The translations under genes and the position numbers were made by a program. From the NCBI RefSeq assembly GCF_000378965.1, contig NZ_KB900536.1:3001-67000 (forward strand): a DNA stretch of 64,000 bases, read 5' to 3'. Position 1 is the first letter of the stretch. Each line of letters begins with the position of its first letter. Origin of the DNA: Thioalkalivibrio thiocyanodenitrificans ARhD 1 (GTDB lineage: Bacteria > Pseudomonadota > Gammaproteobacteria > Ectothiorhodospirales > Ectothiorhodospiraceae). This document shows, piece by piece, positions 18,567-46,175 of this stretch. The notes below the pieces were generated by a model, which searched no databases, was not told the DNA's origin, and worked only from the letters and a program-made list of their open reading frames with translations.

Positions 18567-18875
18567 GCATTCGCGTTTGAGCCACAGAGGACAGAAAGGG
18601 CTGTTGTTGGCCACAGAGGTCACAGAGGTCACAGAGAAAAGATAAATATTGCGCACGGTATCGGGTGCCCGCCTCTCGGGTGGCGCGCCTCGACCCATTC
18701 CGTGGTTACGTGATCCTCTACCCTCTGTGACCTCTGTGCCCTCTGTGGCGCATCAGGTTTTCTGTTCGTACCGGCATGCGCTTCGACCTGGCACCCTGCG
18801 CAGAGGAACGCCATCCAGGAGGCAGGCGCCCGATACACGGCGAAGCCCTTCTCTTATCTCTGTGCCCTCTGTGGC
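18550..18875. repeat. Large CACAGAGG-type repeat, copy 1
   Basis: This stretch contains three blocks of CACAGAGG-type nonamers, the first as CACAGAGGTCACAGAGG and the later ones in the opposite orientation as CCTCTGTGACCTCTGTG. A unique core between them (TTGCGCACGGTATCGGG, CCATTCCGTGGTTACG) is shared almost base for base with 21446-21760. It begins inside the last codons of mutS and ends shortly before the stop of the HD-GYP gene. Confidence 0.85.
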
Positions 18876-18918
18876 ACATCAGACTTTCCGTTCATACCGC
18901 CCGGCGCTTCGACCCGGC

Positions 18919-21183
18919 TCATTCCCATTGAAAACCCTTTTCACGAAACAGGCGGAGGCAGGCGTCCACTGCGGCGGGATCGTACAGGTGGCCCCGTCCC
19001 TGCTCGATCTCGGTCAACGCCTGGTCGATGCCGAGGCCCGCGCGGTAAGGGCGGTGCGTGGTCATCGCCTCGACCACGTCGGCGACCGCGAGGATGCGGG
19101 CTTCGAGAACGATCTGCCCACCCTTCAGCCCGAACGGATAGCCCGAACCGTCGAGGCGTTCATGGTGCTGCAGGATCATCTCCCGCACGGGCCAGGGGAA
19201 ACTCACATCCTTGAGGATGTCGTAACCGGTCTGGGCATGGCCCTTGATCAAGCCGTATTCCATGTCACTCAGCCGCCCCGGCCGTGTGAGGATCTCGGCC
19301 GGGACCGCGATCTTGCCGATGTCATGGAGTTGGGCACCCACCCGGACGCCTTCGATGCGATGTGCATCGAGGCCCAGTTCCGCGGCAATCGACGACGCCA
19401 GGTCGGCCACCCGCCGCTGGTGGCCCGACGTATAGGGATCGTGCATCTCCACGACCCGCGCCACGGCTTCGACGGTCTGCAGGAGAGTCTTGCCGAGCGC
19501 CCCGTGCGCCTCGTCGCGCTCCGCCTTGATCCGAAGCGCTCCCAGTCCGTAGGACAGGTCCCGCGCCAGCTCTTCCAGTTGGTCGACAACCGCCTCGGTA
19601 AAGACGCCGGGCTCATCGGCATGAACGTTGAGCGACCCGAAGAGCTCGCCGTCCGCAAACAGCGCCAGCGCCGCAGTGGAGCCGATGCCGCAGGACCGCA
19701 GATCCTCGCCCCAGGGGGCGCTTTGAACATCTTCGGGAATCTCGTTGAAGACCTGCGTTCGGCCGCTGTGAAGGGCCTTGCCGCAGGGACACTGCGCGGT
19801 CTCATTCCCCGACCAGCGCGTTGCCATGGCCTCGATCGCCGCGCAGCAGTCGCCTGCGCAGGCCCTCATGTTCAAGCCCCCGTCCGGGGTCCCGTAGCCC
19901 ACCCAGGCTGCCCGGAAGCCCCCATCCGACACGATGACGTCGCAGATCCGCCGGAGCAGTTCATCCTCATGGTCGGCGTGCACCAGCGCCGCGTTGGCAT
20001 GGCTCAATGTGATGAGCACACGATCCAGCCGTTGCACTGCCCGCTCCGTGTCCCGTTGCGCGAGGGCATAGGCGATCGCCGCCGCGGCGTCCTGCAGCAA
20101 ACGAAGGTCGAAGTCATCCCAACCCCGCTCCGTGCGCACCCGGTCGGACCCGATGAAGCCCATCAGGCGCTCACCCAGCACCACGGGCACCAGCAACAAT
20201 GACTGTACTTCGCCTGCCTCGAAATGGGCACGTTCCGGCGAAGCCGGCGGCACGTCGGAGACCCGGGGTACCGCGACCGGCTTGAAGCTCCGCAACCGTT
20301 CCAGGCTCCATCCGAAACCCGCGGTCGGGAGGCCGCGCAGGCTCGGCATCTGCGCCGCAATCCCCTCCGCACACCACTCGTGGGTATTGTCCATGCGGGT
20401 GCCGTCTTCCGAGAACTGGAACAGGTAGCAGCGATCGGCCCCCACGTGGTTGCCCAGTTCGCGCAGCGCCGCATCGATCCCCTCATCGGTCCCGTGCGCA
20501 CCGAGCTTCAGGAAGCGGGTGGAGATGTTGCGCACGATGTCCTGGAGTTCCACATGCCGCCACAGGCTCTCCTGCGCGCGCCGCTGCTCGGTGATGTCCT
20601 CCATGGCGTGGATGGAGTAGCGGTAGCGTCCGGCGTCATCCCGAACCGCGAAGGCGCGGGAGAGGAAGATCTCGCCGCTTTCCAGCACGACCTCGTCCAG
20701 CGCCTCCCCGCTGCTTTCCCCCTCGTGGTGCGCGCCATCCTCCGCCTCCAGTTCCAGCCGGCAACGCGGCAGCGGCTGGTCCCCGGGCGGAAAGACCTCC
20801 CAGTACCGCCGCCCGATCAGTTGACGGTAATCGAGCCCGGCGCGTTCGGCGTAGGCGCGGTTGGCCCGCAGCAGGCGGCCCTTGCGGTCATGGAGGAAGA
20901 TGGGGTGGCGCACGGCGTCGAAGGCATCAAGCCATTCGCGATGGGCCTGCTCGATACGGGCCAGGCCGCGTTCGCGAAACGCCACCACCACACCCAGGAA
21001 CGCCGTGACCAGCAGACCGGCCCACAGCGCATAAAAGGCATCATGGAGCGAACGATCCTCGCTGCGCAGCAACCAAAAGACGGCTAGCGACAGCAGGATG
21101 CCCGCGCAAAGCACCAAGATCACCGGCAGGTGACGGCGTCCACCCAGACCGGCCCGCGGGCCGCCTTGCCCTTCGTCGCCCAT
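18919..21183 (-). CDS. Membrane PAS-GAF-GAF-HD-GYP cyclic-di-GMP phosphodiesterase
   Basis: The 754-residue protein has two N-terminal membrane helices (about residues 20-40 and 50-70), a PAS domain (about 80-205, FDAVRHPIFLHDRKG), two GAF-like domains (about 225-375 with VGADRCYLFQF, and 400-560) and a C-terminal HD-GYP domain. The last shows HDIGK and HHERLDGSGYP, the metal-binding and GYP signatures of active enzymes that break c-di-GMP to GMP. The second GAF has clustered Cys (CAGDCCAA, CPCGKAL). I chose the ATG at 21183 with GAGG upstream. It sits alone between mutS and fdxA, genes that are usually adjacent, and is bracketed by two direct copies of a large repeat. Confidence 0.94.
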   Translation of the reverse strand: MGDEGQGGPRAGLGGRRHLPVILVLCAGILLSLAVFWLLRSEDRSLHDAFYALWAGLLVTAFLGVVVAFRERGLARIEQAHREWLDAFDAVRHPIFLHDRKGRLLRANRAYAERAGLDYRQLIGRRYWEVFPPGDQPLPRCRLELEAEDGAHHEGESSGEALDEVVLESGEIFLSRAFAVRDDAGRYRYSIHAMEDITEQRRAQESLWRHVELQDIVRNISTRFLKLGAHGTDEGIDAALRELGNHVGADRCYLFQFSEDGTRMDNTHEWCAEGIAAQMPSLRGLPTAGFGWSLERLRSFKPVAVPRVSDVPPASPERAHFEAGEVQSLLLVPVVLGERLMGFIGSDRVRTERGWDDFDLRLLQDAAAAIAYALAQRDTERAVQRLDRVLITLSHANAALVHADHEDELLRRICDVIVSDGGFRAAWVGYGTPDGGLNMRACAGDCCAAIEAMATRWSGNETAQCPCGKALHSGRTQVFNEIPEDVQSAPWGEDLRSCGIGSTAALALFADGELFGSLNVHADEPGVFTEAVVDQLEELARDLSYGLGALRIKAERDEAHGALGKTLLQTVEAVARVVEMHDPYTSGHQRRVADLASSIAAELGLDAHRIEGVRVGAQLHDIGKIAVPAEILTRPGRLSDMEYGLIKGHAQTGYDILKDVSFPWPVREMILQHHERLDGSGYPFGLKGGQIVLEARILAVADVVEAMTTHRPYRAGLGIDQALTEIEQGRGHLYDPAAVDACLRLFREKGFQWE

Positions 21184-21445: not shown

Positions 21446-21760
21446 CGCGCTACTGGGTTGAGCATTCCTGTTTGAGCCACAGAGGACACAGAGGACACAG
21501 AGGACACAGAGAAAAGATAAATGTTGCGCACGGTATCGGGGGCCCGCCTTTCGGGTGGCGTGCCTCGGCCCATTCCGTGGTTACGTGATCCTCTTTCCTC
21601 TGTGACCTCTGTGCCCTCTGTGGCGCATCAGGTCTTCCGTTCGTACGGGCAGGCCTTCGCCCCGGCACCCTGCGCAGAGGAACGCCATCCAGGGGGCGGG
21701 CTCCCGATACACGGCGCAGCCTTTTTCCCATCTCTGTGCCCTCTGTACCCTCTGTGGCCA
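21446..21760. repeat. Large CACAGAGG-type repeat, copy 2
   Basis: It is a direct copy of 18550-18875 with scattered differences, including the TTGAGCATTC junction, the CACAGAGG arrays, the TTGCGCACGGTATCGGG core and the GCAGAGGAACGCCATCC segment. Its left edge GCGCTACTGGGTTGAGC resembles GCGCTGCTGGATTGAGC at the end of mutS, so the copy seems to include a mutS tail. Confidence 0.83.
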
Positions 21761-21890
21761 CCGGCCCTCTCCGAATCCGTTTCGGTCCGTTCAACCTATC
21801 CGCGACCCCGCACCGCGAACCCGCGGGACACGCTCGAAATCCACGGGCCTTGTCGATACACTGATGCCACGAGATTGCAGGAGAATGACC

Positions 21891-22216: not shown

Positions 22217-25117
22217 GTGAACCCGGGACGCGACTCCCGGGTGCATGGCGCCGCCCCCGGCGCAGATCCCCTGGCCTGGCTGGCCCGGCGCATCATCGAA
22301 GACCACCGGGACCAACTACCCGACCTGACCCGCGTGACCGTGCTGCGCCCCCGTGCCCACGGGGACGCGCGGCTTCGCCGGCTGCTGCTGGAAGCGGCGC
22401 ACGAGCGGGGTTCCGGTGCCCTGCTGGGACCCCGCATCACGTCCATGCGCCAGTGGATCTCCGAGGCGATCCCCCCGGATGTCCCGACCCTGGGCGCCCA
22501 CGGCCGGGAACTGCTGCTGTTCGAATCCCTGCGCGCGCACGCGCAACTGTTCGGGCGGCACGATCCGTGGCGGCTGGCCGACACGCTCCTGGAACTGTTC
22601 CGTGAACTCACCCTGGGCGGCACCACGCCGCCGCCCGAGTACGAGGCCTTCGTAGAGCGGCTGCGGGCAGCTTACGGCCTGGGGGCGGATGTCGGTCGCT
22701 GTCTGGAATCTCTGGGACGTGAGGCCCGCATTGTCCATACCCTGTGGCAGGCATGGCTGACGCAGCAGCATGCCGAGGGCCGGGAGGACCCGGACGCCCG
22801 CTACCTGCGCGCCCTGGCCGCCCTGGACCCCGACGGGATCGCCGCGGACCACCTCTACGTGGCCGGCTACGACGAGGTCCTGCCCGCCGAGGCGGCCCTG
22901 CTGGGCGGCCTCGCCCGTGCGGGACGAGCCCACTGGCTGGTGCCCGCACCGGCCGCGCCCGGGCTCCCGGCGCCGGATGCCCCGCCCGGCACCGACGACA
23001 CGCCCTTCGGCGCATTTCTGGACCAGGTGTTTCACACGGACGGTGCGCCGCTTCGCGACCGGGCCCTGCGCTTCGCGGAAAGGCATCCCCGGAGCCCCGC
23101 CGCGGATCGCGTGGCCCTGCTCGCCGCCGAGGATGCCGAGGCCCAGGCCGCGGCCCTGGACATCCGCATCCGCGCCTGGCTTCTGGAGGGCCACACGCGT
23201 ATCGGCGTGGTCACCGACGACCGTCGCCTGGCCCGGCGCCTGCGCGCCCTTCTGGAACGGGCCGGCATCGATCTGGACGACCCGGGCGGCTGGGCACTGT
23301 CGACCACCCGGGCGGCGGCCGCCCTGGAACGCTGGCTGGAGGCGCTGGAGGAGGATTTCGCCTACCAGCCGCTCATGGATGTGCTCAAGTCCTCCTTCGT
23401 CCTTCCAGGACACGACCGGGAGAAACACCTGTTCGCCGTGTACCGCCTGGAACAGGACGTGATGCTGCGGGAGAACATCCCGCGCGGCCTCGGGCGCATG
23501 CGCAGCCATCTGTCGCAGCGCACCCGGCGGCTGGGACCGGCGGGGGAATCCGGCGCCCGGGCCGCCGGCACCCTGCTCGACGCACTGGAACACGCCGCGC
23601 AACCCCTGAAGGGACTGATCAACGGGCCTGCCTGTCCGGCAGACCGGCTGATGCGCGCCCTGCGCGACAGCCTGGAACGCCTGGGCATGGACCGGGCCCT
23701 GGACGAGGATCCGGCGGGACGCCGGATCCTGGAGGAACTGGCTGCCATGGAAGGGGACCTGCGGCAGCGCCCCCTGTCCATGGACTGGCGCGAGTTCCGT
23801 ACCTGGCTGGGCCGCGTGCTGGAGACCCGCCACTTCCTGCCGCACCCCCGGCCCGCACCCGTGCAGTTGCTCGGTCTGGGCGAAACCGGCCTGGCACGCT
23901 TCGACGCGCTGATCATCGCTGCGGCGGACCGGGAACATCTGCCGGGTCATGCGCCGGTGCGTGCCCTGTTCAACGATGGGGTGCGCCACGCCCTGGACCT
24001 GGAGACCTGGCACGACCGGGTCATCCGCCAGCGCGGGCGCTTCCGGCGCCTGCTGGAGGCGGCACCCCGGGTACTCATCACCTGGCAGCGGGAACGCGAG
24101 GGCGGCCCGCAGCGGCCCGCCCCATGGGTGGAACTGATCGATGCCTTTCATCGGCTTGCCTGGTCGCAGTCCCTGGACGACGTGACGCTGGCCACATGGC
24201 TCGACCACCCCGGCGCGGCCGTCGCGAGCCCCGACACGCGGCCATTGCCGCCGGCGCCGTCGCGCCCCGCGCCGGTGCTGCCGCCCGCGCGCGTACCCGC
24301 GAAGCTCTCCGCCAGCGCGCACCAGGATCTCATCGATTGCCCCTACCGTTTCTACGCGGCCCGGGGGCTGGGACTTGCGCCCCAGGAGGAACTGGCCGAG
24401 GCACTGAGCAAGGCCGACTACGGCGAGCGGGTGCATCTGTGCCTGCAGGCCTTCCATGGCGGGGTGGCGGACCTGCCCGGTCCGTGGCGCGGGCCTCTGG
24501 ACGAGGCTGCTCGCCCGAAGGCCCGGGAACTGCTGGAGGCGATCAGCGAGGCGGTCTTCCGGCGGGATCTGGAGGACAACTTCATGCACCGGGGCTGGCT
24601 GGCCCGATGGCGCGCGCTGATCCCTGCCTACCTGGACTGGGCCATTGCCCGGGCGCGCGAGTGGCGGGTCGATGGCACCGAGGCGCAGTTGCAGCAGCCC
24701 TTCCACGACGCACTGGTGCTGAAGGGGCGGCTCGACCGGATCGATACCGGTGATCAGGGTCCCGCCGTGATCGACTACAAGACCGGCCCGCCGCCCGATC
24801 AGACGGACGTGGATGACGGCGAGGCGGTGCAGCTACCCACCTATGCGCTCCTGCTCCCCGATGCGGTCCGGGTTGAATACCTGCAGCTCGACCGGGACAA
24901 GGTGGTTCCCGGGGCCTGTCTTGAGGGTAAGGCGCTGGCGCAGCTCCGGGATGCCGTGGGTGCGCGGCTGCTCGAACTGGTGGCACAGCTTCGCAACGGC
25001 GCGTCCGTGCCCGCATGGGGCGATGCGGCGGTGTGCCGGCATTGCGCCATGGGCGTCCTGTGCCGGCGCGGCACATGGACGGACGAAGGCGACAGGACCC
25101 GGCCGCCGGTCGAATGA
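22217..25117 (+). CDS. AddB-like PD-(D/E)XK nuclease with Fe-S cysteines
   Basis: The 966-residue protein resembles AddB/RexB, the partner of AddA in double-strand-break processing. The C-terminal RecB-like nuclease is complete: LKGRLDRID, IDYKTG (about residue 852) and QLPTYALLL. Four Cys fit an iron-sulphur staple, one in DCPYRFY (about 706) and three in CRHCAMGVLC (about 940-949). The N-terminal part (TVLRPRAHGDARLRRLLL) is a helicase-like fold without a Walker A loop; most AddB proteins keep one. A GTG two bases after the fdxA stop is the likely start. No AddA-like helicase gene follows; the next gene is unrelated. Confidence 0.87.
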   Translation: MNPGRDSRVHGAAPGADPLAWLARRIIEDHRDQLPDLTRVTVLRPRAHGDARLRRLLLEAAHERGSGALLGPRITSMRQWISEAIPPDVPTLGAHGRELLLFESLRAHAQLFGRHDPWRLADTLLELFRELTLGGTTPPPEYEAFVERLRAAYGLGADVGRCLESLGREARIVHTLWQAWLTQQHAEGREDPDARYLRALAALDPDGIAADHLYVAGYDEVLPAEAALLGGLARAGRAHWLVPAPAAPGLPAPDAPPGTDDTPFGAFLDQVFHTDGAPLRDRALRFAERHPRSPAADRVALLAAEDAEAQAAALDIRIRAWLLEGHTRIGVVTDDRRLARRLRALLERAGIDLDDPGGWALSTTRAAAALERWLEALEEDFAYQPLMDVLKSSFVLPGHDREKHLFAVYRLEQDVMLRENIPRGLGRMRSHLSQRTRRLGPAGESGARAAGTLLDALEHAAQPLKGLINGPACPADRLMRALRDSLERLGMDRALDEDPAGRRILEELAAMEGDLRQRPLSMDWREFRTWLGRVLETRHFLPHPRPAPVQLLGLGETGLARFDALIIAAADREHLPGHAPVRALFNDGVRHALDLETWHDRVIRQRGRFRRLLEAAPRVLITWQREREGGPQRPAPWVELIDAFHRLAWSQSLDDVTLATWLDHPGAAVASPDTRPLPPAPSRPAPVLPPARVPAKLSASAHQDLIDCPYRFYAARGLGLAPQEELAEALSKADYGERVHLCLQAFHGGVADLPGPWRGPLDEAARPKARELLEAISEAVFRRDLEDNFMHRGWLARWRALIPAYLDWAIARAREWRVDGTEAQLQQPFHDALVLKGRLDRIDTGDQGPAVIDYKTGPPPDQTDVDDGEAVQLPTYALLLPDAVRVEYLQLDRDKVVPGACLEGKALAQLRDAVGARLLELVAQLRNGASVPAWGDAAVCRHCAMGVLCRRGTWTDEGDRTRPPVE

Positions 25118-25306
25118 GGCGGACCCGGCCGGAAAGGCGCGCGGAACGGAAACATGGCGGGCGCCACACGGGTCCTCTACGGCAGAATCCCCGGTACATC
25201 GCGGGCAATCCCGGTGACCCGTGGCGACAGGTGTTCGATCACAGTGTTTCGTGTCCGGATGCAGTAGAATTTCCGCACATTGAACAAGCCTCGTGAGGCC
25301 ACACCC

Positions 25307-25873
25307 ATGCGCACCATCCGTTTCCCCCTCTGGATCCTGCTGCTGCTTCTCATGTCCTCGTCCCAGGCATGGGCCGACCGCTACGAGGAAACCATGGAGA
25401 TATTTCGCAATGCCATGGAGAGCCGCGACTTCTTCGACCATGCCTACGGGTATGCGGTATTCCCCACCATCGGCAAGGGCGGCATCGGCATCGGTGGCGC
25501 CTACGGCGAAGGGCGGGTCTACGCCCAGGGCGAGCATGTGGGCGATACCAGCATGGCGCAGGTGACCATCGGCCTCCAGTTGGGCGGGCAGGCCTTCAGC
25601 CAGATGATCTTCTTCGAGGACGAACGGGCATTCCGGGAGTTCACCGGCGGCAACTTCGAGTTCGGCGCACAGGCCTCGGCAGTCGCCATCACCGCCGGCG
25701 CCCAGGCCGGCGCAGGCACCACGGGCACCTCGGCTGGCGCCAGCGGCGGCCGGCGCGATGCGCGCACGGTGGGCAGCTACTACCGGGGCATGGCGGTGTT
25801 CACGGTCGCCAAGGGCGGACTCATGTACGAAGCGAGCATCGGCGGCCAGAAGTTCAGCTATACGCCGAGGTGA
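25307..25873 (+). CDS. Exported SYLF/YSC84-domain protein
   Basis: The 188-residue product has a signal peptide (MRTIRFPLWILLLLLMSSSQAWA) cleaved near residue 23. The mature part is a SYLF domain: FFDHAYGYAVFPTIGKGGIGIG, then GGQAFSQMIFFEDERAF, then GMAVFTVAKGGLMYEASIGGQKF. SYLF proteins bind phosphoinositide-like lipids in eukaryotes; bacterial members are periplasmic with an unclear role. The ATG follows GTGAGG. It stands alone between the AddB-like gene and the trehalose genes. Confidence 0.92.
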   Translation: MRTIRFPLWILLLLLMSSSQAWADRYEETMEIFRNAMESRDFFDHAYGYAVFPTIGKGGIGIGGAYGEGRVYAQGEHVGDTSMAQVTIGLQLGGQAFSQMIFFEDERAFREFTGGNFEFGAQASAVAITAGAQAGAGTTGTSAGASGGRRDARTVGSYYRGMAVFTVAKGGLMYEASIGGQKFSYTPR

Positions 25874-26358
25874 CGTTCGAGAAGGTGAAGGGTGGAAAGG
25901 CGCCTTTTTGTCACAGAGGTCACAGAGAAAAGACAGTTTCCCTCGTAAAGCTGCAGCACGCGGGCAGAATCGATCCATAGACAGGGTACCTCGTGCAACC
26001 GGGGTGTCCTCTGTATGCTTCGCGTCTTGGCGGGCACAAATGCTTTGTTGGCCTCGGTGTCCCCTGTGACCGCGTCTCCCATCACGCCGACCGCCGACCC
26101 GTGATCCGCCCCGGCTCGCGGAACCTTGTCATCATCGTCCCGCGAACGCATCGAACACCCCGGTCGCACGGCTGTCCCGACCCACCTCACGAACACAATG
26201 AGATCATTGCGTTGCCCGCCCAGCGCGCACCGAAATACATGCCGGGCACACCGGGAAGGCGCAGAATCGGTCTTGCACCCATGGGGAACGGGATATTCAC
26301 CGGGACGCGCCCGGCGGCTGTGGGGCCGAGAACGGAAGGGATCGACGGAGGAGCCTGC
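25874..26358. repeat. Spacer with partial CACAGAGG element
   Basis: The first 60 bases hold a single CACAGAGGTCACAGAG array followed by AAAAGACAG, and near 26010-26065 degraded reverse units (GTGTCCTCTGTATGC, TTCGCGTCTTGGCGGGC). The remainder up to the HAD-OtsB gene is unassigned and should include its promoter. The open frames here lack codon structure. Confidence 0.55.
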
Positions 26359-27954
26359 ATGATCAGACACACCGCTGCACGGACGAACCTCGCGGCCGCC
26401 CTTTTCGACATGGACGGCGTGGTCACCGACACGGCGAAGGCACATGCCGGCGCATGGAAGCGTCTGTTCGACGAGTATCTGCGAAGGCGCGCGGATCACC
26501 TCGGCGAGGCGTTCACACCGTTCGATCCCCGCAGCGATTACCGGCGATACGTGGACGGCAAGCCCCGCAGTGACGGTATCAGAAGTTTTCTCGATTCACG
26601 GGGCATCGAGCTTCCGGACGGAAACGAGAACGACGGACCGGACAAGGAAACCGTGTGTGGCCTCGGCAATCGCAAGGACCGCTATTTCCATGAATGGCTC
26701 GAGGCAAACCCGGTCCGGGCGTACCCGGGGACCCTCCGCCTCCTCGAAGATTTGCGCACCGCCGGCATCCCGACGGCGGTGTTTTCTTCAAGCCGTAATG
26801 CAGAGGCGGTGTTGCGCAGTGCCGGCGTGCTCGACCGCTTCGGTGCCAGGGTCGACGGCGAAGACAGGGCGCGGCTTGGCATCCCCGGAAAACCGGCACC
26901 GGATATGCTGCTCGAGGCCGCACACCGGCTCGGCGCCGCGCCCGGTGACAGCGCGGTATTCGAAGACGCGATAGCGGGCATACAGGCCGCGGTCCGGGGC
27001 GGCTTCGGCCTCGCGATCGGCGTGGCACGCGGCAACGTCGGCGATGCGCTGAAAGAGGCCGGCGCGGATATCGTCGTACATGATCTGAGCGAACTGCGGT
27101 GCAGCCCCGGTACCGGCCTGACAGTCAAGACGCTCGCCAATCTGCCTTCGGTCTGGGATCGCCAGGACGAGATCGGGCACAGTCTGGCGGACCGAAAACC
27201 GGCGGTGTTTCTCGATTATGACGGCACGCTCACGCCCATCGTCGAGGATCATAACCGGGCATTGCTCGACGATGACATGCGTTCCACGGTGGCGGCACTG
27301 GCCAGGCACTGCCCGGTCGTCATCGTGAGCGGCAGAGACCTTGCAAGGCTTCGGGAACTGGTCGCCCTGGATCGCGTCTGGTACGCGGGAAGCCATGGCT
27401 TCGAGATCATCGGACCCGAGGGCACGGACCAGGGCCTGAGGATGGGCGAGGAGTTCCTCCCTGAACTCGACGAGGCGGAACGCAAGCTCGAGGACCGCCT
27501 TGCGGAGATCGAGGGTTGCGCGCTCGAGCGCAAGCGATACTCCATCGCAGTGCATTACCGGCGCGTCCCGGATACGGACGTCCAGCGGGTCGGAGCCGTG
27601 GTGGACGAGGTGCTGGCCGAGCACCCGCGCCTGTATCGGGGCCACGGCAAGAAGGTCTTCGAGCTGCGCCCCGACATCGACTGGGACAAGGGCCGCGCCG
27701 TGCTCTGGCTGCTCGAGCATATCGATGCCGGGCGATCCGCCGCCGTCCCGATCTACGTGGGCGACGACATCACCGACGAGGATGCCTTTCACGCGCTCAC
27801 CGGCCACGGTTTGTGCGTCGCCGTGCGCCACGAGGAGATGCGGAAATCGGCGGCCGACTACACTCTGTCCGATACACGGGACGTGAAGCGGTTCCTTCAA
27901 TGGCTGACCGAAATCACCGCGGACCCGGATGCGACGGAGGGGAGTGGGCAATGA
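26359..27954 (+). CDS. Fusion of beta-phosphoglucomutase-like HAD phosphatase and trehalose-6-phosphate phosphatase
   Basis: The 531-residue protein joins two HAD enzymes. The N-terminal half has FDMDGVVTDTAKAHA (about residues 18-32), a helical cap, and FSSSRNAE and FEDAIAGIQAA, the pattern of beta-phosphoglucomutase. The C-terminal half starts FLDYDGTLTP (about 284) with VIVSGRDLARL, AGSHGFEI and GDDITDEDAF (about 467), the signature of trehalose-6-phosphate phosphatase (OtsB). It would dephosphorylate trehalose-6-P and turn beta-glucose-1-P into glucose-6-P. GGAGGAG precedes the ATG at 26359. It overlaps the GH65 gene by four bases. Mycobacterial OtsB1 (Rv2006) has, as I recall, the same domains plus GH65 in one chain. 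No otsA is in view. Confidence 0.93.
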   Translation: MIRHTAARTNLAAALFDMDGVVTDTAKAHAGAWKRLFDEYLRRRADHLGEAFTPFDPRSDYRRYVDGKPRSDGIRSFLDSRGIELPDGNENDGPDKETVCGLGNRKDRYFHEWLEANPVRAYPGTLRLLEDLRTAGIPTAVFSSSRNAEAVLRSAGVLDRFGARVDGEDRARLGIPGKPAPDMLLEAAHRLGAAPGDSAVFEDAIAGIQAAVRGGFGLAIGVARGNVGDALKEAGADIVVHDLSELRCSPGTGLTVKTLANLPSVWDRQDEIGHSLADRKPAVFLDYDGTLTPIVEDHNRALLDDDMRSTVAALARHCPVVIVSGRDLARLRELVALDRVWYAGSHGFEIIGPEGTDQGLRMGEEFLPELDEAERKLEDRLAEIEGCALERKRYSIAVHYRRVPDTDVQRVGAVVDEVLAEHPRLYRGHGKKVFELRPDIDWDKGRAVLWLLEHIDAGRSAAVPIYVGDDITDEDAFHALTGHGLCVAVRHEEMRKSAADYTLSDTRDVKRFLQWLTEITADPDATEGSGQ

Positions 27955-30476
27955 GTTCTACCGGCACCCGAGAGACAGGCAATCACGAGGTGCCCGCGCC
28001 GGACCGGGACGACACCCCGGTTCACGAGGAAGGGACCTGGTCCCTGGTCTACGAAGGCTACCGTCCCGATCAGGAGGGGCTTCGCGAGGCGCTGTGCACA
28101 CTGGGCAACGGCTATTTCGCGACCCGCGGCGCCGCGCCCGACAGCCGGGCCGACGACGTGCACTACCCCGGCACCTATCTGGCCGGCGGGTACAACCGGC
28201 TCGTGAGCGAGGTGGCGGGCCGCAAGGTCGAGAACGAGGACCTGGTCAACCTGCCCGACTGGCTGCCGCTGACGTTTCGCATCGACGACGGTCCGTGGTT
28301 CTCCATGGACGACGTGGAGATCCTCTCACTGCGCCAGACGCTGGATTTGCGGCGCGGCCTGCTGTGCCGCGAGCTGCGCTTTCGCGACGCCCGCGGGCAC
28401 ACCACGGGCTGGCACGAGCGCCGCGTGGTCAGCATGGCCGATCCGCATCTGGCCGGGCTTTGCGTGGAACTCACCGCCGAGGACTGGTCCGGGCAGATCA
28501 CCGTGCGCTCGGCCCTGGACGGCGGCGTCACCAACAGCGGCGTGGCCCGCTACCGCGATCTGGCCAACCGGCACCTGGAGGTCCTGGAGCGGGAACACCG
28601 GGGCGAGGAGACCATCTTCCTGCGCGCCCGCACCAACCAGTCACAACTGGGCGTCGCCCAGGCGGCTCGCACGCGCCTGTACAGGGACGAAGAACCGATT
28701 GACGCGCAGCGTCGGACGATCAGGGACGGACAGCGCATCACGCAGGAGATCGACTGTACCGTGCAGGCGAATAGCACATTGCGGATTGAAAAGATTCTCG
28801 CCATGTACTCTTCGCGAGACTGGGCCATCTCGGAACCGGGCATCGAGTCATTGAGAGCGCTGGGCCACGCCGGGCGCTTCGACGAGCTGCGCGCTGCCCA
28901 CGAACTGGCCTGGACGCATCTCTGGAACGAGTGTGACATCAGCCTGGACGGTGATGCAGCGTCCGGGACGGAACTCAAGCTGCGCGTGCACATCTTCCAT
29001 CTGCTGCAGACGGTTTCGCCACACTCCATCGACCTGGACACCGGCGTGCCGGCCCGGGGCTGGCACGGGGAGGCCTACCGGGGGCACATCTTCTGGGATG
29101 AGCTGTTCATCTTCCCCTTCCTGAGCCTGCGCATCCCCATCCTGACCCGCGCCCTGCTGCGCTACCGCTATCGCCGCCTGACGGAGGCGCGCCGGGCCGC
29201 GAAGGAGGCCGGCTGCCGGGGTGCCATGTACCCCTGGCAGAGCGGCAGCGACGGGCGGGAGGAGACCCAGCACCTGCATCTCAACCCGGACTCGGGCCGC
29301 TGGCTCCCCGACACCTCCCACCGCCAGCGCCACATCAACGCGGCCGTCGCCTACAACATCTGGCAGTACCACCAGGCCACCGGCGATCAGGAGTTCATGC
29401 ACTTCTACGGCGCCGAGATGCTGCTGGAGATCGCCCGCTTCTGGGCCGATATCTCCACCTACAACCCTTCGCTGGACCGCTACGAGATCAAGGCGGTCAT
29501 GGGGCCGGACGAATATCACACCGCCTACCCGGACACGGATCCCGAAGCGGCCGGCGGCATCGACAACAACGCCTACACCAACGTCATGGCGGCCTGGGTC
29601 CTGACCCGGGCGCTGGATGTCATCGATCTGCTTCCGGGTCAGCGGCGGCGCCAGCTTTGCGAGCGTTTGGGGCTGGGCGACGAGGAGTTCGAGGGGTGGC
29701 TGGAGATCAGCCGCAAGCTGCGCGTGCCCATCAACGCCGAGGGCATCATCTCCCAGTTCGAGGGTTACGACGACCTGGAGGAGTTCGACTGGGATGGCTA
29801 CCGGGAGAAGTACGGCGACATCCACCGCCTCGACCGCATCCTGGAGGCGGAGGGCGACACGCCGAACCGCTACAAGGTCTCCAAGCAGGCCGACGTGCTG
29901 ATGCTGTTCTACCTGTTCTCGGCCGAGGAGCTGGCGCTGCTGTTCGAGCAGCTCGGGTATCCCTTCGAGTACGACACCATCCCGCGAAACATCGACTACT
30001 ACTCCGCGCGCACCTCCCACGGTTCCACCCTGAGCCGGCTGGCGCATTCGTGGGTCCTGGCGCGTGCGGATCGCGCCCGCTCCTGGCACCTGTTCCTGCG
30101 CGCCCTGGACAGCGACCTCGCCGATGTCCAGGGCGGCACCACGCCCGAGGGCATCCATCTGGGCGCCATGGCCGGCACCGTCGACCTGGTGCAGCGCTGC
30201 TACCTGGGTATCGACATGTGGGCCAACGTGCTGCATTTCGATCCGGCGCTGCCCGACGATCTGCACCGGGCACGGGTGCGCCTGCACTACCGGGGCCAGA
30301 CACTGGACGTGGAAGCCGACCACGACATGCTGCGCATCCGCAGCGCCCCCTGCACCACGACACCCATCACCATCGCCTACCGCGGGCACTATCGCGACCT
30401 ATCGCCGGGTGAGACTTGCGGGTTTCCGCTGCTCAAACCCAGGGAGCGTGATCGCGACGAGAACCGCCGGCCATGA
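27951..30476 (+). CDS. GH65 disaccharide phosphorylase (trehalose/maltose/kojibiose type)
   Basis: The 841-residue enzyme belongs to glycoside hydrolase family 65. It has the beta-sandwich N-terminal domain (YEGYRPDQEGLREALCTLGNG), the (alpha/alpha)6 barrel, the catalytic acid Glu in GPDEYH (about residue 519) and the phosphate-binding HGSTLS loop (about 689). Such enzymes split an alpha-linked disaccharide with phosphate to glucose and beta-glucose-1-P, the substrate of the HAD domain encoded just upstream. Overlap ATGA couples the two genes. Exact substrate specificity cannot be read here; trehalose is likeliest given the fused OtsB and neighbours. Confidence 0.94.
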   Translation: MSSTGTRETGNHEVPAPDRDDTPVHEEGTWSLVYEGYRPDQEGLREALCTLGNGYFATRGAAPDSRADDVHYPGTYLAGGYNRLVSEVAGRKVENEDLVNLPDWLPLTFRIDDGPWFSMDDVEILSLRQTLDLRRGLLCRELRFRDARGHTTGWHERRVVSMADPHLAGLCVELTAEDWSGQITVRSALDGGVTNSGVARYRDLANRHLEVLEREHRGEETIFLRARTNQSQLGVAQAARTRLYRDEEPIDAQRRTIRDGQRITQEIDCTVQANSTLRIEKILAMYSSRDWAISEPGIESLRALGHAGRFDELRAAHELAWTHLWNECDISLDGDAASGTELKLRVHIFHLLQTVSPHSIDLDTGVPARGWHGEAYRGHIFWDELFIFPFLSLRIPILTRALLRYRYRRLTEARRAAKEAGCRGAMYPWQSGSDGREETQHLHLNPDSGRWLPDTSHRQRHINAAVAYNIWQYHQATGDQEFMHFYGAEMLLEIARFWADISTYNPSLDRYEIKAVMGPDEYHTAYPDTDPEAAGGIDNNAYTNVMAAWVLTRALDVIDLLPGQRRRQLCERLGLGDEEFEGWLEISRKLRVPINAEGIISQFEGYDDLEEFDWDGYREKYGDIHRLDRILEAEGDTPNRYKVSKQADVLMLFYLFSAEELALLFEQLGYPFEYDTIPRNIDYYSARTSHGSTLSRLAHSWVLARADRARSWHLFLRALDSDLADVQGGTTPEGIHLGAMAGTVDLVQRCYLGIDMWANVLHFDPALPDDLHRARVRLHYRGQTLDVEADHDMLRIRSAPCTTTPITIAYRGHYRDLSPGETCGFPLLKPRERDRDENRRP

Positions 30477-37670: not shown

Positions 37671-37805
37671 GACATCGGTGGATCGTTCTTCGCCCGGGGG
37701 ACCGGGCTCCTACGGGGGCCCCACGCAGCGTGGGTGCCCAGTCCCCTGGGCGATCGGGCTGGACATCGGTGGATCATTTATCGCCCGGAGGACCGGGCTC
37801 CTACG
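37671..37805. repeat. Two 44-bp direct repeats
   Basis: Units at 37671-37714 and 37762-37805 share GACATCGGTGGATC, TCGCCCGG and GGACCGGGCTCCTACG with a few differences. The second unit contains the stop codon of the GH15 gene. The GGGCTCCTAC end also recalls the repeats near 31545. Confidence 0.75.
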
Positions 37806-39618
37806 ATGCCCCTTTCCAATGGTTGGACAGATTGATGCCGCTGGAGATCAGGCCCACGTGACTGAAGGCCTGCGGGAAATTGCCGAGAAAGGCGCCCGAG
37901 GCCGGATCGATCTGCTCGGGCAGCAGACCCAGGTGATTGGCGCGGCCGCACAGGGAATCGAACAGTGCACCGGCCTCTTCCAGGCGCCCCTGCCCTGCCA
38001 GGTTGTCCACCAGCCAGAAGCTGCATAACAGGAAGGCGCCTTCGTCGCCGGGGAGGCCGTCCGGGGACTCGTGGGGCAGATAGCGATAGAGCAGACCGTC
38101 GCCGGCACCGAGACGCCGAACGACGGCCGCCGTGGTGGCCACCATCTTCGGGTGATCGGCGGCGATGACACCGCGCAACGGCAGGGCGAGCAGGCTGGCG
38201 TCGATGCCGCCTCCGCCCAGGTGCTCGGTCAACGAGCGAAGTTGCGGGTCCCAGGCCTCCTCCAGGATCGCCTGGCGGATGTACGCCGCCTCGGCCCGCC
38301 ATGCCTGTGCGTCACCCTCCATCCCGTGCTGCTCGGCCATGCGCGCGCCGCGGTCCAGGGCCACGGCGCAAAGGGCGGCGGAATAGGTGAACGGCCGACC
38401 GGCGGTACGCACCTCCCAGATGCCGTGATCCGGCGTACGCCATTCCCGCCAGGCGTCCTCCACCAGCCGGCGCAGACGTGCCCACAACGTCCCGTCCATG
38501 GGCCCGCCCATCCGGGTCCATCGGTAGGCACAGTCGAGGATCTCGCCGAACACGTCATGCTGGCGTTGCTCCACGGCCCCGTTGCCCCAGCGTACCGGGC
38601 CGGAGCCGCGGTAGCCCTCCAGTTCAGGTACCTCGCGCTCCGGCGGCGGCAGGTGCCCGTCCACGTCGTAGAGCACCCTCGGCCGGCCCGCCCGATCCAC
38701 CGCATCCAGCACCCAGCCCAGAAACCCCGCCGCCTCATGGCCCATGCCGATGCGCCCCATGGCATAGACGGAGAAGGCGGCGTCCCGGATCCAGGCAAAG
38801 CGGTAGTCCCAGTTGCGCGGACCACCGATGGCCTCGGGCAAAGAGGTGGTGGGCGCGGCGATCATCGCTCCGGTGGCGGTGTGGTCCAGCAGCTTGAGCG
38901 TGATGGCCGAACGGCGCACCAGATCCTCCCGCGGCCCCTGGTAGTGGAAGTGGCGCATCCAGCGGCGCCACACTTCCAGCGTGGCGTCCAGTATCTCGTC
39001 GGGGCCGTGGCTGTGGAAATGGTGGGCGTGGGCACCCCAGGACAACACCAGGTGATGGACGTCGCCTTCCCGAAGTTCGTAAATGCCCTCCTCGGACTGC
39101 AGCGGCAGGCTGGATTCCAGGTACAGTTCCAGTTCCGGCCGGCGCGCCGTGATCAGCACCAGACCGCCCCCGTGGGGCCGGGTCCGGGCACCGCCCCAGG
39201 GCTGCACCCGGATGCGCAGGCGCACCCGCCCGCCCAGCACCTCGATACGGCGCAGCAGCTCACCCCTGCCGGCGGCGGTGTCCTCGGAAAGATCCGCGCC
39301 GCTGCGCAGGGTCAGGGCGTCGGTGACGCGCACCCGCCCCTCGGGACCGCGCATCTCCGTGACCAGCACGCCCGTATCGGGCTCGTAGAACTGGCGCGAC
39401 GAGACCAGCGGTTCCGGGGCGACGGTGAACCCGCCGCCGCGACGCGCATCCAGCAGGCCGCAGAACAGGGGCTCGGAATCGAAGCGCGGCACGCACATCC
39501 AGCTCACGGCGCCGTCGCGTCCCACCAGTGCGGCGGTGGTGCCGTCGCCGATCAGTCCGTGGTTTTCAATGGGCAGATAACCCTCCACCCGGCGTAGTTC
39601 GTTCTCCGGTTCGCTCAC
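37801..39618 (-). CDS. GH15 glycoside hydrolase (glucoamylase or trehalase type)
   Basis: The 605-residue protein has the family 15 layout: an N-terminal beta-sandwich (YLPIENHGLIGDGTTAALVG) and a helical barrel with NWDYRFAWIRDAAF, HGIWEVRTAGRPFTYS (catalytic Glu) and LLPEQIDPASGAFLGNFPQAFSH (second Glu). Members release glucose from alpha-glucans or split trehalose. It starts with GTG overlapping the treZ stop by four bases, making it the fourth gene of the glgX-treY-treZ operon. Within that operon it could trim maltodextrins or recycle trehalose; the sequence does not choose. Confidence 0.92.
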   Translation of the reverse strand: MSEPENELRRVEGYLPIENHGLIGDGTTAALVGRDGAVSWMCVPRFDSEPLFCGLLDARRGGGFTVAPEPLVSSRQFYEPDTGVLVTEMRGPEGRVRVTDALTLRSGADLSEDTAAGRGELLRRIEVLGGRVRLRIRVQPWGGARTRPHGGGLVLITARRPELELYLESSLPLQSEEGIYELREGDVHHLVLSWGAHAHHFHSHGPDEILDATLEVWRRWMRHFHYQGPREDLVRRSAITLKLLDHTATGAMIAAPTTSLPEAIGGPRNWDYRFAWIRDAAFSVYAMGRIGMGHEAAGFLGWVLDAVDRAGRPRVLYDVDGHLPPPEREVPELEGYRGSGPVRWGNGAVEQRQHDVFGEILDCAYRWTRMGGPMDGTLWARLRRLVEDAWREWRTPDHGIWEVRTAGRPFTYSAALCAVALDRGARMAEQHGMEGDAQAWRAEAAYIRQAILEEAWDPQLRSLTEHLGGGGIDASLLALPLRGVIAADHPKMVATTAAVVRRLGAGDGLLYRYLPHESPDGLPGDEGAFLLCSFWLVDNLAGQGRLEEAGALFDSLCGRANHLGLLPEQIDPASGAFLGNFPQAFSHVGLISSGINLSNHWKGAS

Positions 39619-41384
39619 GGCTCTTCCCCGCCGCAGGGTATTGCATTGGAGACCAGATCAAGGATCGCCACGGACTCTGCGGGAAGGTGGACCGCCTCGC
39701 GCGTGACCGCGACACCGGGATCGGAGGCGAGCAGGATCCGGGGGTGGCGCCCCGCCGGACAGTCGAGACGCCTTTGCGCCGTGCCCAGGTTGCACGCCAC
39801 CGCCAGATCCCCGCGCCGCATGATCAGCCAGCGCTCGGACTCGTCATAGTGAACGACGATCCCCTCAAGGCAATCGTCGCCGAAGGCCGGGTGGGCGCGG
39901 CGCAGGGCGATCAGGTCCCGGTACCAGCGCAGCAGGCTCGCGTGCGGCTCACGCGCCGGCTGATCCCAGTCCAGCCGGGAGCGCTCGAAGGTGTCGGGCG
40001 CCTGTGGGTCCGGAATGCGTGCGGGATCCCAGCCGAAGGCGGCGAACTCCCCGCGCCGGCCCTCGCGTACAGCCTCGGCCAGGTCGGGATCCTCGTGATC
40101 GGTGAAGTAGAGAAACGGCGTGTCGGCGCCCCACTCCTCGCCCTGGAAAAGCAGCGGAACGAAGGGTGCGGTCAGCACCAGGGCCGCCCCCACCCTGAGC
40201 AACCCCGCGGAGAGCAGCTGCGCGCTGCGCTCGCCCATGGCGCGGTTGCCCACCTGGTCGTGGTTCTGCAGACACCCGACAAAGCGGCGCCCCGGCAGGT
40301 CGGCGGCGGGTCTGCCGTGACTGCGCCTGCGATAGCTGGAGTAGCGGCCGTCGTAGACCAGCCCCCGGGTCAGGGCCGCGGCCAGGTCGGCCACGGCGCC
40401 GAAGTCCTCGTAGTAGCCGTCGCGCTCGCCGGTCAGCACCGCGTGCAGGGCGTGATGAAAATCCTCGTTCCATTGCGCATCCAGGCCATAACCGCCGATC
40501 TCCGGTGCGCGCACCACGCGCGGATCGTTGAGGTCGCTCTCGGCGATCACCACCAGGTGCCGCCCCAGCCGCGCCTCCAGGGCGCGCACCTCCCGGACCA
40601 GTGCCTCCAGGAAATGGATGGCGGAGGTGTCGACGATGGCATGCACGGCGTCGATGCGCAGGCCGTCAAAGTGGTAGTCCTCGAGCCACATGAGGGCGTT
40701 GTCGAGAAAGAAACGCCGCACCGTGTCGCTGTGGGCCCGGTCCAGGTTCACCGCATCGCCCCACGGCGTGCGGTAGACGTCGGTGAAATAGGGGCCGAAG
40801 CGGCCCAGGTAGTTGCCGCTGGGGCCCAGGTGGTTGTAGACCACGTCCAGCAGCACCCCCAGACCCTTGCAGTGGCAGGCATCCACCAGGCGCTTGAGTC
40901 CCTCGGGCCCGCCGTAGGCATGGTGCGGCGCGAACGGGTCCACTCCGTCATAGCCCCAGCCGCGCTTTCCCGGGAACTCCGCCACGGGCATCAACTCCAC
41001 GTGCGTGATGCCCAGGTCCTTCAGGTGATCCAGCCTGTCGATCACCGCCTCGAAGGTGCCTTCGGGGGTGAATGTGCCCACGTGCAGTTCACAGATCACC
41101 GCCGAGGCGAGCGGCGGGGCCTGCCAGCCGGCGTCGTGCCACCGGAAACGGCCGTGATCCAGCCAGCGGGACGGGCCATGGACGCCGTGGGGCTGCCAAG
41201 GGGAACGCGGATCGGGAAACGGACCCTCCCCGTCGAGCCGGAAGGCGTAATCGGTGCCGTAACCCAGCTCCGGCGCTTCCACGGACCACCAGCCGTCGGC
41301 CTCCCGCACCATGGGCCGGCGCTGCCCGGCGCATTCCAGCTCCACCCGTCGCACCTCGGGCGCCCAGACACGCACACAGGTCAC
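39615..41384 (-). CDS. treZ: Malto-oligosyltrehalose trehalohydrolase
   Basis: TreZ cuts trehalose from the end of maltooligosyl-trehalose made by TreY. The 589-residue GH13 protein has an N-terminal beta domain (VRVWAPEVRRVELEC), the barrel motifs LLDVVYNHLGP, LRIDAVHAI (nucleophile Asp), VIAESDLNDPRV (acid Glu) and QNHDQVGNR. GTG at 41384 overlaps the treY stop (GTGA), and the upstream open sequence is treY in another frame, so this start is preferred. Confidence 0.95.
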   Translation of the reverse strand: MTCVRVWAPEVRRVELECAGQRRPMVREADGWWSVEAPELGYGTDYAFRLDGEGPFPDPRSPWQPHGVHGPSRWLDHGRFRWHDAGWQAPPLASAVICELHVGTFTPEGTFEAVIDRLDHLKDLGITHVELMPVAEFPGKRGWGYDGVDPFAPHHAYGGPEGLKRLVDACHCKGLGVLLDVVYNHLGPSGNYLGRFGPYFTDVYRTPWGDAVNLDRAHSDTVRRFFLDNALMWLEDYHFDGLRIDAVHAIVDTSAIHFLEALVREVRALEARLGRHLVVIAESDLNDPRVVRAPEIGGYGLDAQWNEDFHHALHAVLTGERDGYYEDFGAVADLAAALTRGLVYDGRYSSYRRRSHGRPAADLPGRRFVGCLQNHDQVGNRAMGERSAQLLSAGLLRVGAALVLTAPFVPLLFQGEEWGADTPFLYFTDHEDPDLAEAVREGRRGEFAAFGWDPARIPDPQAPDTFERSRLDWDQPAREPHASLLRWYRDLIALRRAHPAFGDDCLEGIVVHYDESERWLIMRRGDLAVACNLGTAQRRLDCPAGRHPRILLASDPGVAVTREAVHLPAESVAILDLVSNAIPCGGEEP

Positions 41385-44030
41385 GGCCGATGCTCCTCGC
41401 GCACCAGCAGTGCCACCGGGAACGACCCCAGCAGCGATGCAACCGGCGCTTCGCCACCGTCGACCACCTCTTCGGTGAGCACATTGCGCCAATGCCCTGC
41501 CGGAAGATGCAGTGCGGTGTCGCCCCACTCCCCGCCCAGCGCGTGCACCAGTCGCGGCACCAGCACGGCCACACCCTCCCCGCGCAGAAAGGCCACGCCG
41601 TGGGCGGCCCTTCCCCCCGTGAGACGCAACGGACGATACTCACCTTGCGGTCCCAGCCAACGGGGGTGGTCGCGGCGTACACGCAGTGCCTGGCGGATGA
41701 CCCACAGCTTGGGCATTCCTTCATCCGAACGGGCGAGGATCTCCGCGACGGAGAGCCCCTCCAACTCCGCCAGCAGCCGCTCGCGAATCACAAAGTCCAC
41801 GGGCCTGCGATTGTCCGGATCCACCAGGCTCAGGTCCCAGAGCTCCGCGCCCTGGTAGATGTCGGGCACACCGGGGGTGGTGAGCTTGAGCAGGGTCTGT
41901 GACAGCCCGTTGATTCGCCCCGGCGTCACCAGGAGTTTGACGAAGTCATCCAGTTCCGCGCGGAACTCACTGTCCTGCAGCACCGCGTTCACGAAGTCGC
42001 GCACGGCCTGCTCATAGCCGTCGTTCGGCTGTGTCCACGAGGTGTGCAGCTTGGCCTCGCGCACCGCCTTTTCCATGTAGCCGGCCATGCGTTGTGCGTC
42101 GATGGGCCATGCCCCCACCAGCGTCTGGTAGAGCAGGTACTCGGTGGGGGGATCCGGCAGCTCGTCGCTGCGATGAACCGCATTGCGTTTCGTCCAGTGA
42201 TGCACCGCCGCCGTCCATTTGTCCGGCATTTCCGAGAGCAGCAACAGGCGGGCACGCACATCCTCGCTGCGCTTGGTGTCATGGGTGGAGGTGGCGAGCA
42301 GCGACTGCGGATGGCGGGCGAGCGCTTGCGCGCAGGCATCATGAAAGTGCTCCACGGACACGCCGAAGCACGCCGGGTCGCCGCCCACCTCGTTGAGTGC
42401 GATGAGGCGGTGGAAGCGGTAGAAGGCGGTGTCCTCCATGCCCTTGGCCATGGCCGGACCGGTAAGCTGCTGAAAACGCGTGGCCAGTTCCGCCTCGCGA
42501 TCGCCGGGTATGCGAAGCAGCAACAGGCCGTGGAGAAAGCCGAACAGTTCCGGATCGAGCTCCGCGCGCCGTTCCCGGGCCTGGTCAATGGCCTGCGTCA
42601 CATAGCGTACATCCGCCTCCGAGACGGTCCCGTCCGGGTGGCGCACATAGGTGCGGTAAACGGGAAAACAGGCGGCCACCTCCAGCAGCACCTGGTAGAG
42701 CTCGTGTCGGGTGTAGTCGCGATGCCGGCGGTGGCGCTCGCAGACGTCCACGGACAGCGACACCAGACGGTTGAGTTCGCTGCCCAGCAGTTCCTTGACC
42801 ACCTGACGCTTGCAGTCGTGTACCAGTTCGGCGAAGTCCGCGGCCTCGCCCGTGAGCTCCTCCAGCAGCCGGGTCAGCGGTGCCTCGCCCGCCGGATCGG
42901 CGAACAGCCCCTGCACCCGATTGAGAAAGTCATAACCGGTGGTGCCGGCCACGGGCCAGTCGGCGGGCAGGGATTCGCCGGGCTCGAGGATCTTTTCCGC
43001 CACGACCCAGGCGTCGGGGCAGGCGGCGTGCAGCCTGTGAAAGTAGCGGGTCGGATCGCGCAGGCCGTCCGGATGGTCGATGCGCAGCCCGTGCACCTCG
43101 CCCGCACGCGCCCAGCGGATGGGCAGTGCATGGATGGCATCAAACACCTCTTCCTCCTCCACGCGCAGACCGGCCAGATCATTGATGTCGAAGAAGCGCC
43201 GGTAGCCCAGATCCCGACCGGCGGTGCGCCACCAGGCCAACCGGTAGTTCTGTTTCTCGATCAGCTCGTCCAGGGCGTCCGGATCCGTGTTGATGCGATC
43301 CACGTGATCCCGAATGGCGGCATCGGCCGCGGGTTCTTCCCCGCCAAGCTGCACCAGCAGGCGACGGATCACGTCCTTGTCGCGATGACGGCGCTCCACT
43401 GCCCAGCCCAGGGTCACATGGGGACGCGGCAGGCGCGAGCACGATTCCGCGATGAAACCGAGCAACTCGGAATCACTGGTTGCGTAGGCCTTGCAGAGCA
43501 GATCCGACAGGGTGGACGGGTCCAGGGGAAAGGCATGTTCATGATAGTGCAGCGTGAACACACCGTCGCGATAGCGCATCTGCAGATCCTGCGCCTCCAG
43601 GATGCGCCCGTAGTGATCGCCCAGCACCGGCAGGAGCACCTTGTTGGGCCAGCGCTCCTCGGAGGCCTCCCAGTCCACGTCGAAGTACAACGCGTACCGG
43701 CTTGACGGACCGTTCTCAAGCACGTCCCACCACCAGGGGTTCTGATCCCCGGCCACGGCCATGTGATTGGGCACGATGTCCAGCATCTGCCCCATGCCCG
43801 CCGCCTCCAGGACGTCGCACAAGCGCCTGCGCGCGGCCTCCCCGCCCAGTTCCTCGTTGACCCGCGTGGGGTCGACCACGTCGTAGCCGTGGGTGCTGCC
43901 GCGCACCGCCTGCAGGCAGGGCGAGAGGTAGACATGACTGATTCCCAGCCGGGAGAGGTAGGCCACGACGCCGGCCGCCGCGTCCAGACCGAATTCCGGA
44001 CGCAGTTGCAACCGGTAGGTGGCCACCGGT

Positions 44031-44041
<11 letters not shown>
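41381..44041 (-). CDS. treY: Malto-oligosyltrehalose synthase
   Basis: TreY turns the reducing-end alpha-1,4 bond of a maltodextrin into alpha,alpha-1,1. The 886-residue GH13 protein starts MRPEPVATYRLQLRPEFG and shows GISHVYLSPCLQAVRGSTHG, DIVPNHMA, LRIDHPDGLRDP (nucleophile) and VAEKILEPGE (acid), with the large insertions of this subfamily. The ATG overlaps the end of glgX by 11 bases. Pairing with treZ gives the complete TreYZ route from glycogen to trehalose. Confidence 0.96.

Positions 44042-46175
<2,134 letters not shown>

Follow-up and report, generated by a model that had tools for sequence, protein, structure and literature searches.

Known routes to trehalose start from nucleotide sugars (OtsA/B, TreT), glucans (TreY/Z), maltose (TreS) or free glucose (TreP). 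Which of these, if any, is served by a gene pair of Thioalkalivibrio thiocyanodenitrificans ARhD 1 that combines a beta-phosphoglucomutase (beta-PGM), an OtsB-type trehalose-6-phosphate (T6P) phosphatase and a GH65 phosphorylase? The pair lies in a stretch of 64,000 nucleotides (contig NZ_KB900536.1, positions 3,001 to 67,000, forward strand; hereafter the window, numbered from its first letter). Taken as a whole chain of claims, we hold it somewhat better than an even bet that the two genes form a phosphorylase-driven module that synthesises trehalose without nucleotide sugars.

The first gene, P0001, translates without a stop over 26359-27954 (+) into 531 aa. A sequence-only reading of the window had called it a beta-PGM/OtsB fusion overlapping a GH65 gene by four bases, and both calls stand: TIGR02009 scores 158.4 bits (cut-off 153.35), which places the N-terminal domain in the beta-PGM family, TIGR00685 scores 186 bits (equivalog cut-off 68.05), which marks the C-terminal domain as a T6P phosphatase, and start and stop codon share the ATGA at 27951-27954. 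Among 14 aligned sequences, D17, D19, T25, H29, R70, S144, K178, E202 and D203 of the beta-PGM domain are invariant, and P0001 has equivalents of all of D8, D10, T16, H20, R49, S114, K145, E169 and D170 of the Lactococcus enzyme. In the OtsB domain D286, D288, R326, K444, D469 and D470 are invariant and S324 is nearly so; P0001 conserves HAD motifs I-IV (D286, D288, S324, K444, D469, D470). We take the conserved HAD residues of both domains to be catalytic. The beta-PGM domain has a longer cap, like that of 8h5s (named beta-phosphoglucomutase; 215.5 bits). The PDB entry 5gvx, a Mycobacterium tuberculosis trehalose-phosphate phosphatase, aligns with residues 181-514, a range that takes in OtsB and also the C-terminal half of the beta-PGM domain; this protein, by our reading OtsB2, may be a relic of this beta-PGM/OtsB fusion.

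The second gene product, P0002, carries all three GH65 domains (PF03636, PF03632, PF03633), which together with the general acid Glu and the His/Ser phosphate site place it among the GH65 phosphorylases. The role of His and Ser at this site is described in PMC8626586. Kojibiose and maltose phosphorylases read HKSS or HESS there; P0002 and the solved structure 9lb6 both read HGST, in which Thr replaces the second Ser.

Which disaccharide, then, does P0002 act on? De Beul et al. (PMC8537180) describe six correlated positions that predict GH65 specificity, numbered on the Caldicellulosiruptor kojibiose phosphorylase (64, 392, 394, 402, 416 and 585); the fingerprints given there are TRIGPP for trehalose phosphorylase, EEAPxx for kojibiose phosphorylase, KV[MF]NES for maltose phosphorylase and DQGQDE for T6P phosphorylase. 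Our use of this numbering recovers W391 and T417 of the reference enzyme. In every alignment P0002 has D, Q, G and Q at positions 64, 392, 394 and 402, the residues of a T6P phosphorylase; the alignment comparison finds no match to TRIGPP in P0002. According to PMC8537180, the C. abyssi T6P phosphorylase with a DQGQ-type motif forms T6P in vitro from beta-glucose-1-phosphate (beta-G1P) and glucose 6-phosphate (G6P). The pattern [DS]Q[GAS]QD recurs in 77 of the 81 GH65 rows of an 85-row alignment, rows that are not independent (L044 and L072, for instance, are identical); the four exceptions are L045 and L118, both second GH65s, the kojibiose-phosphorylase-like neighbour L046, and L123, which is divergent.

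Structure points the same way. The best PDB sequence match of P0002 is 9lb6 (502.7 bits), followed by the kojibiose phosphorylase 3wiq (320.8 bits), and its predicted structure (mean pLDDT 87) also has 9lb6 on top (Z 44.7, 767 residues, root-mean-square deviation 2.1) ahead of 3wir (Z 40.9). The 9lb6 record, from Weissella ceti, labels the molecule "T6P hydrolase" and is titled "T6P phosphatase"; judged by its sequence, it is probably a GH65 T6P phosphorylase. Nineteen residues are kept in at least 95% of the 77 module-type rows plus 9lb6 and absent from six GH65s of other specificity. R200 and R626 are the only basic ones; R626, invariant in the 77 rows and 9lb6 and absent from the kojibiose phosphorylase, GGP and maltose phosphorylase sequences, may bind the 6-phosphate. 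Taken alone, the assignment of P0002 as a T6P phosphorylase is highly probable.

Since P0002 has T6P phosphorylase residues, OtsB and GH65 would share T6P and would not act in series via trehalose. This bears on the recycling module proposed by the sequence-only reading, in which OtsB makes trehalose, GH65 phosphorolyses it and beta-PGM recycles the beta-G1P. All three domains are present with their motifs intact, and the link to T6P metabolism survives; the cascade itself, from T6P through trehalose to glucose plus beta-G1P, does not fit, because it needs a trehalose phosphorylase and a T6P source, whereas P0002 reads D-Q-G-Q instead of TRIGPP and the genome offers no predicted source (no GT20, no PTS_EIIC). 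It would also build trehalose only to destroy it at once. We reject the cascade on these grounds, leaving it a very small chance. The idea that GH65 and OtsB act on an alpha-glucosyl sugar phosphate other than T6P is just as improbable: the fingerprint owes its predictive power to characterised members alone, and the GH65 of an OtsB-free Mycolicibacterium fusion drifts to HQGPD, but the OtsB domain scores above the T6P phosphatase equivalog cut-off and the nearest solved GH65, 9lb6, bears a T6P name.

Where could T6P come from in this organism? The genome (3.75 Mb, 99.99% complete) contains one OtsB and one GH65 in total. It gave no match to GT20, the family of OtsA-type T6P synthases, and so lacks the OtsA/OtsB pathway; nor did it give any match to PTS_EIIC, the sugar permease of the phosphotransferase system (PTS), on which ground we reject import of T6P by that system in this genome. 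With neither present, GH65 running in reverse is the only predicted T6P maker here.

A TreT-type GT4 encoded in the window could also be invoked: it would make T6P, and the module would dephosphorylate or recycle it. The assembly that corresponds to Thioalkalivibrio thiocyanoxidans ARh2 likewise has a TreT-type GT4 immediately ahead of its module (G036:C42, 24900-27701; hit 24900-25334, module from 26178), and a GT4 T6P synthase is reported from Sulfolobus (PMC7688234). However, the Sulfolobus enzyme is a distant TreT homologue, while the window GT4 scores 403 bits on the TreT model itself, though below its cut-off of 775, and the TreT N-domain occurs in only 7 of 24 module genomes lacking GT20 (8 of 25 handles, G036 and G073 being one assembly). 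As a general T6P source the GT4 is unsupported by these counts, and we rate this explanation a shade below the cascade.

In the synthetic reading that we favour, the beta-PGM domain would turn G6P into beta-G1P; GH65, as a T6P phosphorylase in reverse, would link beta-G1P with another G6P molecule, the products being T6P and phosphate; and the OtsB domain would hydrolyse T6P to trehalose and phosphate, pulling the series forward. The net reaction would be 2 G6P + H2O -> trehalose + 2 phosphate. Enzyme activities, direction and any channelling are predictions from sequence. If GH65 acts on T6P, the three domains form one series only in this direction, because a GH65 degrading T6P competes with OtsB; the synthetic direction would therefore explain why they are linked again and again. 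Reversal has precedents: T6P phosphorylase is reported to run in reverse, forming T6P, in beta-PGM-deficient Lactococcus lactis cells (PMC7608592), and PMC13121652 describes T6P synthesis by this enzyme in vitro as favourable and high-yielding, with an equilibrium constant of 760 that its text attaches in one place to the net reaction and in another to the T6P phosphorylase step. The enzyme families are known, and their functional combination is apparently undescribed: we found no description of a beta-PGM/OtsB/GH65 synthesis pathway in one library of open-access papers, subscription papers and preprints lying outside that scope.

How regular is the linkage? A scan of GTDB genomes, many of them metagenome-assembled, gave 80 loci, the best of 560 confirmed relatives. 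GH65 lies directly downstream of the beta-PGM/OtsB unit at 68 of them, as 61 two-gene pairs, five single chains and two three-gene sets; of the remaining 12, three stop at a contig end and nine have no adjoining GH65. Because GH65 adjoins the unit at 68 of 80 loci, the linkage is not chance. Record titles of the 80 name Pseudomonadota, Desulfobacterota, Bacteroidota, Omnitrophota, Nitrospirota, Chloroflexota, Planctomycetota and others, plus one archaeal member, Ca. Ethanoperedens. In the family to which the window belongs, five genomes encode beta-PGM, OtsB and GH65 in the same order as one chain (1361-1378 aa), and the state changes between fused and split at least five times on the tree, a quick one whose PDB rows sit on long branches (the count excludes 11 rows: four PDB entries, L046, L045_27, L118_30, L123, L034, L035 and L036). 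Two genes are the usual form, and fusion into a single chain happened more than once. Locus census and tree thus reverse the earlier view of this pair as a split version of the mycobacterial OtsB1 chain, and descent of the split form from that chain is rejected. Chains of OtsB and GH65 without beta-PGM occur in Rhodococcus BH4, and repeated fusions, these included, tie OtsB to GH65.

Variants of the arrangement were also seen. On a Rubrobacter radiotolerans plasmid OtsB and GH65 stand side by side, in a row with a polyphosphate kinase 2 family gene (L035, 7124-11331). A Mycolicibacterium vanbaalenii plasmid carries a beta-PGM/GH65 fusion without OtsB and with the fingerprint HQGPD (L129, 33-3200); GH65 specificity may differ where OtsB is absent. 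On a Nitrobacter hamburgensis plasmid a beta-PGM/GH65 fusion precedes a HAD-IIB hydrolase of PMM/Hydrolase_3 type (L036, 7257-11296), possibly a stand-in for OtsB. In genome G047 a beta-PGM/OtsB fusion adjoins a kojibiose-phosphorylase-like GH65 (L046, EEAPH), and this genome has GT20.

Does the module take the place of OtsA? Among 58 genomes of relatives, 12 have the beta-PGM/OtsB fusion and two of these 12 (G047, G055) have GT20. The nine module genomes of the window's family, the source genome and eight others, have none, although they are not independent, GT20 being missing from the whole family as sampled. A class-wide sample of 329 genomes holds 53 OtsB carriers, the OtsB loci of all of which were compared; in six of them, from six different families, beta-PGM and a module-type GH65 adjoin the OtsB (G000, G040, G055, G280, G301, G411). 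GT20 is absent from four of these six and from one of the other 47 carriers (Fisher p 0.00025, uncorrected for kinship); that one, G131, has a weak OtsB match (1e-7), and G047 is counted in the 47. We further surveyed GT20 in the genomes of 50 of the 80 scan loci, picked for contig size and isolates. All 15 that lack GT20 have a GH65 of T6P phosphorylase type; in 13 it adjoins the module, and in L088 and L091 it lies elsewhere in the genome. Four GT20-positive genomes lack a module-type GH65 next to the unit: L069 and L122 have no GH65 at all, L064 has one of 32% and L123 one of 41% with ARAPD. Both possible T6P sources, GT20 and a GH65 of this type, were missing together from none of the 50.

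A number of findings weigh against the synthetic reading. The TIGR01990 equivalog model for beta-PGM gives P0001 97.5 bits, below its cut-off of 189.4. Fingerprint positions 416 and 585 of P0002 adjoin gaps and shift with the alignment: the 85-row and one further alignment give D at position 416, the pairwise and 16-row alignments W (in the latter 9lb6 likewise has W), and position 585 is not placeable, being E pairwise and I in the 85-row alignment. In Rhodococcus DK17 the beta-PGM part of a chain with OtsB and GH65 lacks its N-terminal half. TreX/Y/Z and TreT offer other trehalose routes in the source genome, so that the module may not be needed there. In wild-type L. lactis the T6P phosphorylase is catabolic, with T6P supplied by the PTS (PMC7608592). 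Beyond the window's family GT20 is common among module genomes, being present in 35 of the 50 surveyed (absent from 15), which speaks against exclusivity; we reject the module as a replacement of OtsA everywhere. Finally, GT20 makes up 8 of the 62 same-strand neighbours examined (62 of 132 selected), four of the eight being OtsA-OtsB fusions of about 730 aa from Bacteroidales and Cloacimonadota; this survey called open reading frames by length only and overlooks real genes, such as the TreT next to the T. thiocyanoxidans module. Where GT20 lies beside the module, OtsA can supply T6P, and the module is therefore not the sole source.

These counts and the L. lactis precedent are also what favours a T6P hub, in which GH65 would degrade T6P from OtsA or another synthase to G6P and beta-G1P and OtsB would be an alternative exit. 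We consider this explanation unlikely, though deserving far more weight than the others discussed above: the nine module genomes of the window's family have no GT20, 17 of the 24 GT20-less module genomes also lack the TreT N-domain, and a fused OtsB would merely waste the substrate of the phosphorylase. The synthetic reading can be widened to a route from G6P alone, encoded by one to three genes across many phyla of bacteria and in a single archaeon, replacing OtsA in some lineages and accounting for OtsB1 too; this broader claim falls a little short of an even chance. If true, it would account for the occurrence of OtsB where a genome has no OtsA.

Table. Features of the gene pair and of the trehalose/glycogen genes in the window (SD, Shine-Dalgarno)
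Feature	Positions	Strand	Basis
SD-like GGAGGA before ATG of beta-PGM/OtsB gene	26347..26352	+	sequence reading
beta-PGM/OtsB fusion gene (P0001, 531 aa; span incl. stop)	26359..27954	+	translation and domain models
beta-PGM-family HAD domain, residues 12-216	26392..27006	+	TIGR02009, alignment, comparison with 1lvh
OtsB / T6P phosphatase domain, residues 279-517	27193..27909	+	TIGR00685, alignment
SD-like GGAGGGGAG within OtsB gene end, ahead of GH65 ATG	27936..27944	+	sequence reading
Four-base ATGA overlap of fusion gene and GH65 gene	27951..27954	+	ATG 27951-27953, TGA 27952-27954
GH65 gene (P0002, 841 aa), predicted T6P phosphorylase	27951..30476	+	domains, fingerprint, structure match
Loop-3 specificity region, residues 430-454 (Q430, G432, Q440, W451, D454)	29238..29312	+	alignments
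Predicted general acid E521 (GPDEYH)	29511..29513	+	alignment with solved GH65 phosphorylases; invariant in a further alignment
R626, candidate 6-phosphate-binding residue	29826..29828	+	conservation; putative role
HGST, predicted phosphate site	30018..30029	+	alignment
GH15 with trehalase-like N-domain	37801-39618	-	
TreZ	39615-41528	-	
TreY	41381-44041	-	
GlgX	44031-46391	-	
TreT-type GT4	47185-48426	+	403 bits on TreT model, below cut-off 775

Downstream of the pair, 37801-48426 holds a minus-strand cluster of trehalose/glycogen genes (GH15, TreZ, TreY, GlgX) and then the TreT-type GT4 on the plus strand. TreZ, TreY and GlgX are the GH13 proteins inside the window; two more, encoded outside it, are probably GlgB and GlgX. 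Upstream, two long open reading frames start near-identically (VSGARLSGG.PRPIPWLRDPL; 18649-19000 and 21521-21800), which suggests a dispersed repeat between genes. Elsewhere, several copies of the module (L034, L031, L036, L138) have P-type cation ATPases in their vicinity, and universal stress proteins stand next to the Rhodococcus copies, reminiscent of the DosR setting of OtsB1.

How does the module compare with known systems? Mycobacterial OtsB1 (Rv2006), which we take to carry HAD, OtsB and GH65 in this order in one chain, may be one such single chain of the module; the window differs in having two genes that overlap by ATGA, and does not itself belong to the single-chain form. OtsB1 has 1327 aa and is given as of unknown function in PMC11046441. 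PMC12090744 places it in the DosR regulon, reports it only from carbon-starved cells and describes a 2004 claim that it lacks phosphatase activity as made without data; one table lists it as a pseudogene. The route from G6P alone, if true, would give OtsB1 a concrete and quickly testable function, and dormant, energy-poor mycobacteria would make trehalose at no extra nucleotide cost.

Another likeness is to the T6P phosphorylase (TrePP, EC 2.4.1.216) and beta-PGM of Lactococcus and Weissella, with which the window shares the GH65 specificity residues, the best PDB match (9lb6) and the beta-PGM partner. In that system the PTS brings in T6P, which is then broken down, and the pathway as described in PMC7608592 includes no OtsB; the window, by contrast, has OtsB and beta-PGM joined in one protein, and the genome has no PTS_EIIC. 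With OtsA/OtsB the module has the T6P intermediate and the OtsB step in common, but its own genome lacks GT20, and the glucosyl donor would be beta-G1P where OtsA uses a nucleotide sugar. Trehalose phosphorylase (TreP, EC 2.4.1.64) shares the GH65 family, fold and phosphate chemistry, and differs in its fingerprint: TRIGPP there (PMC8537180), DQGQ in the GH65 of the window.

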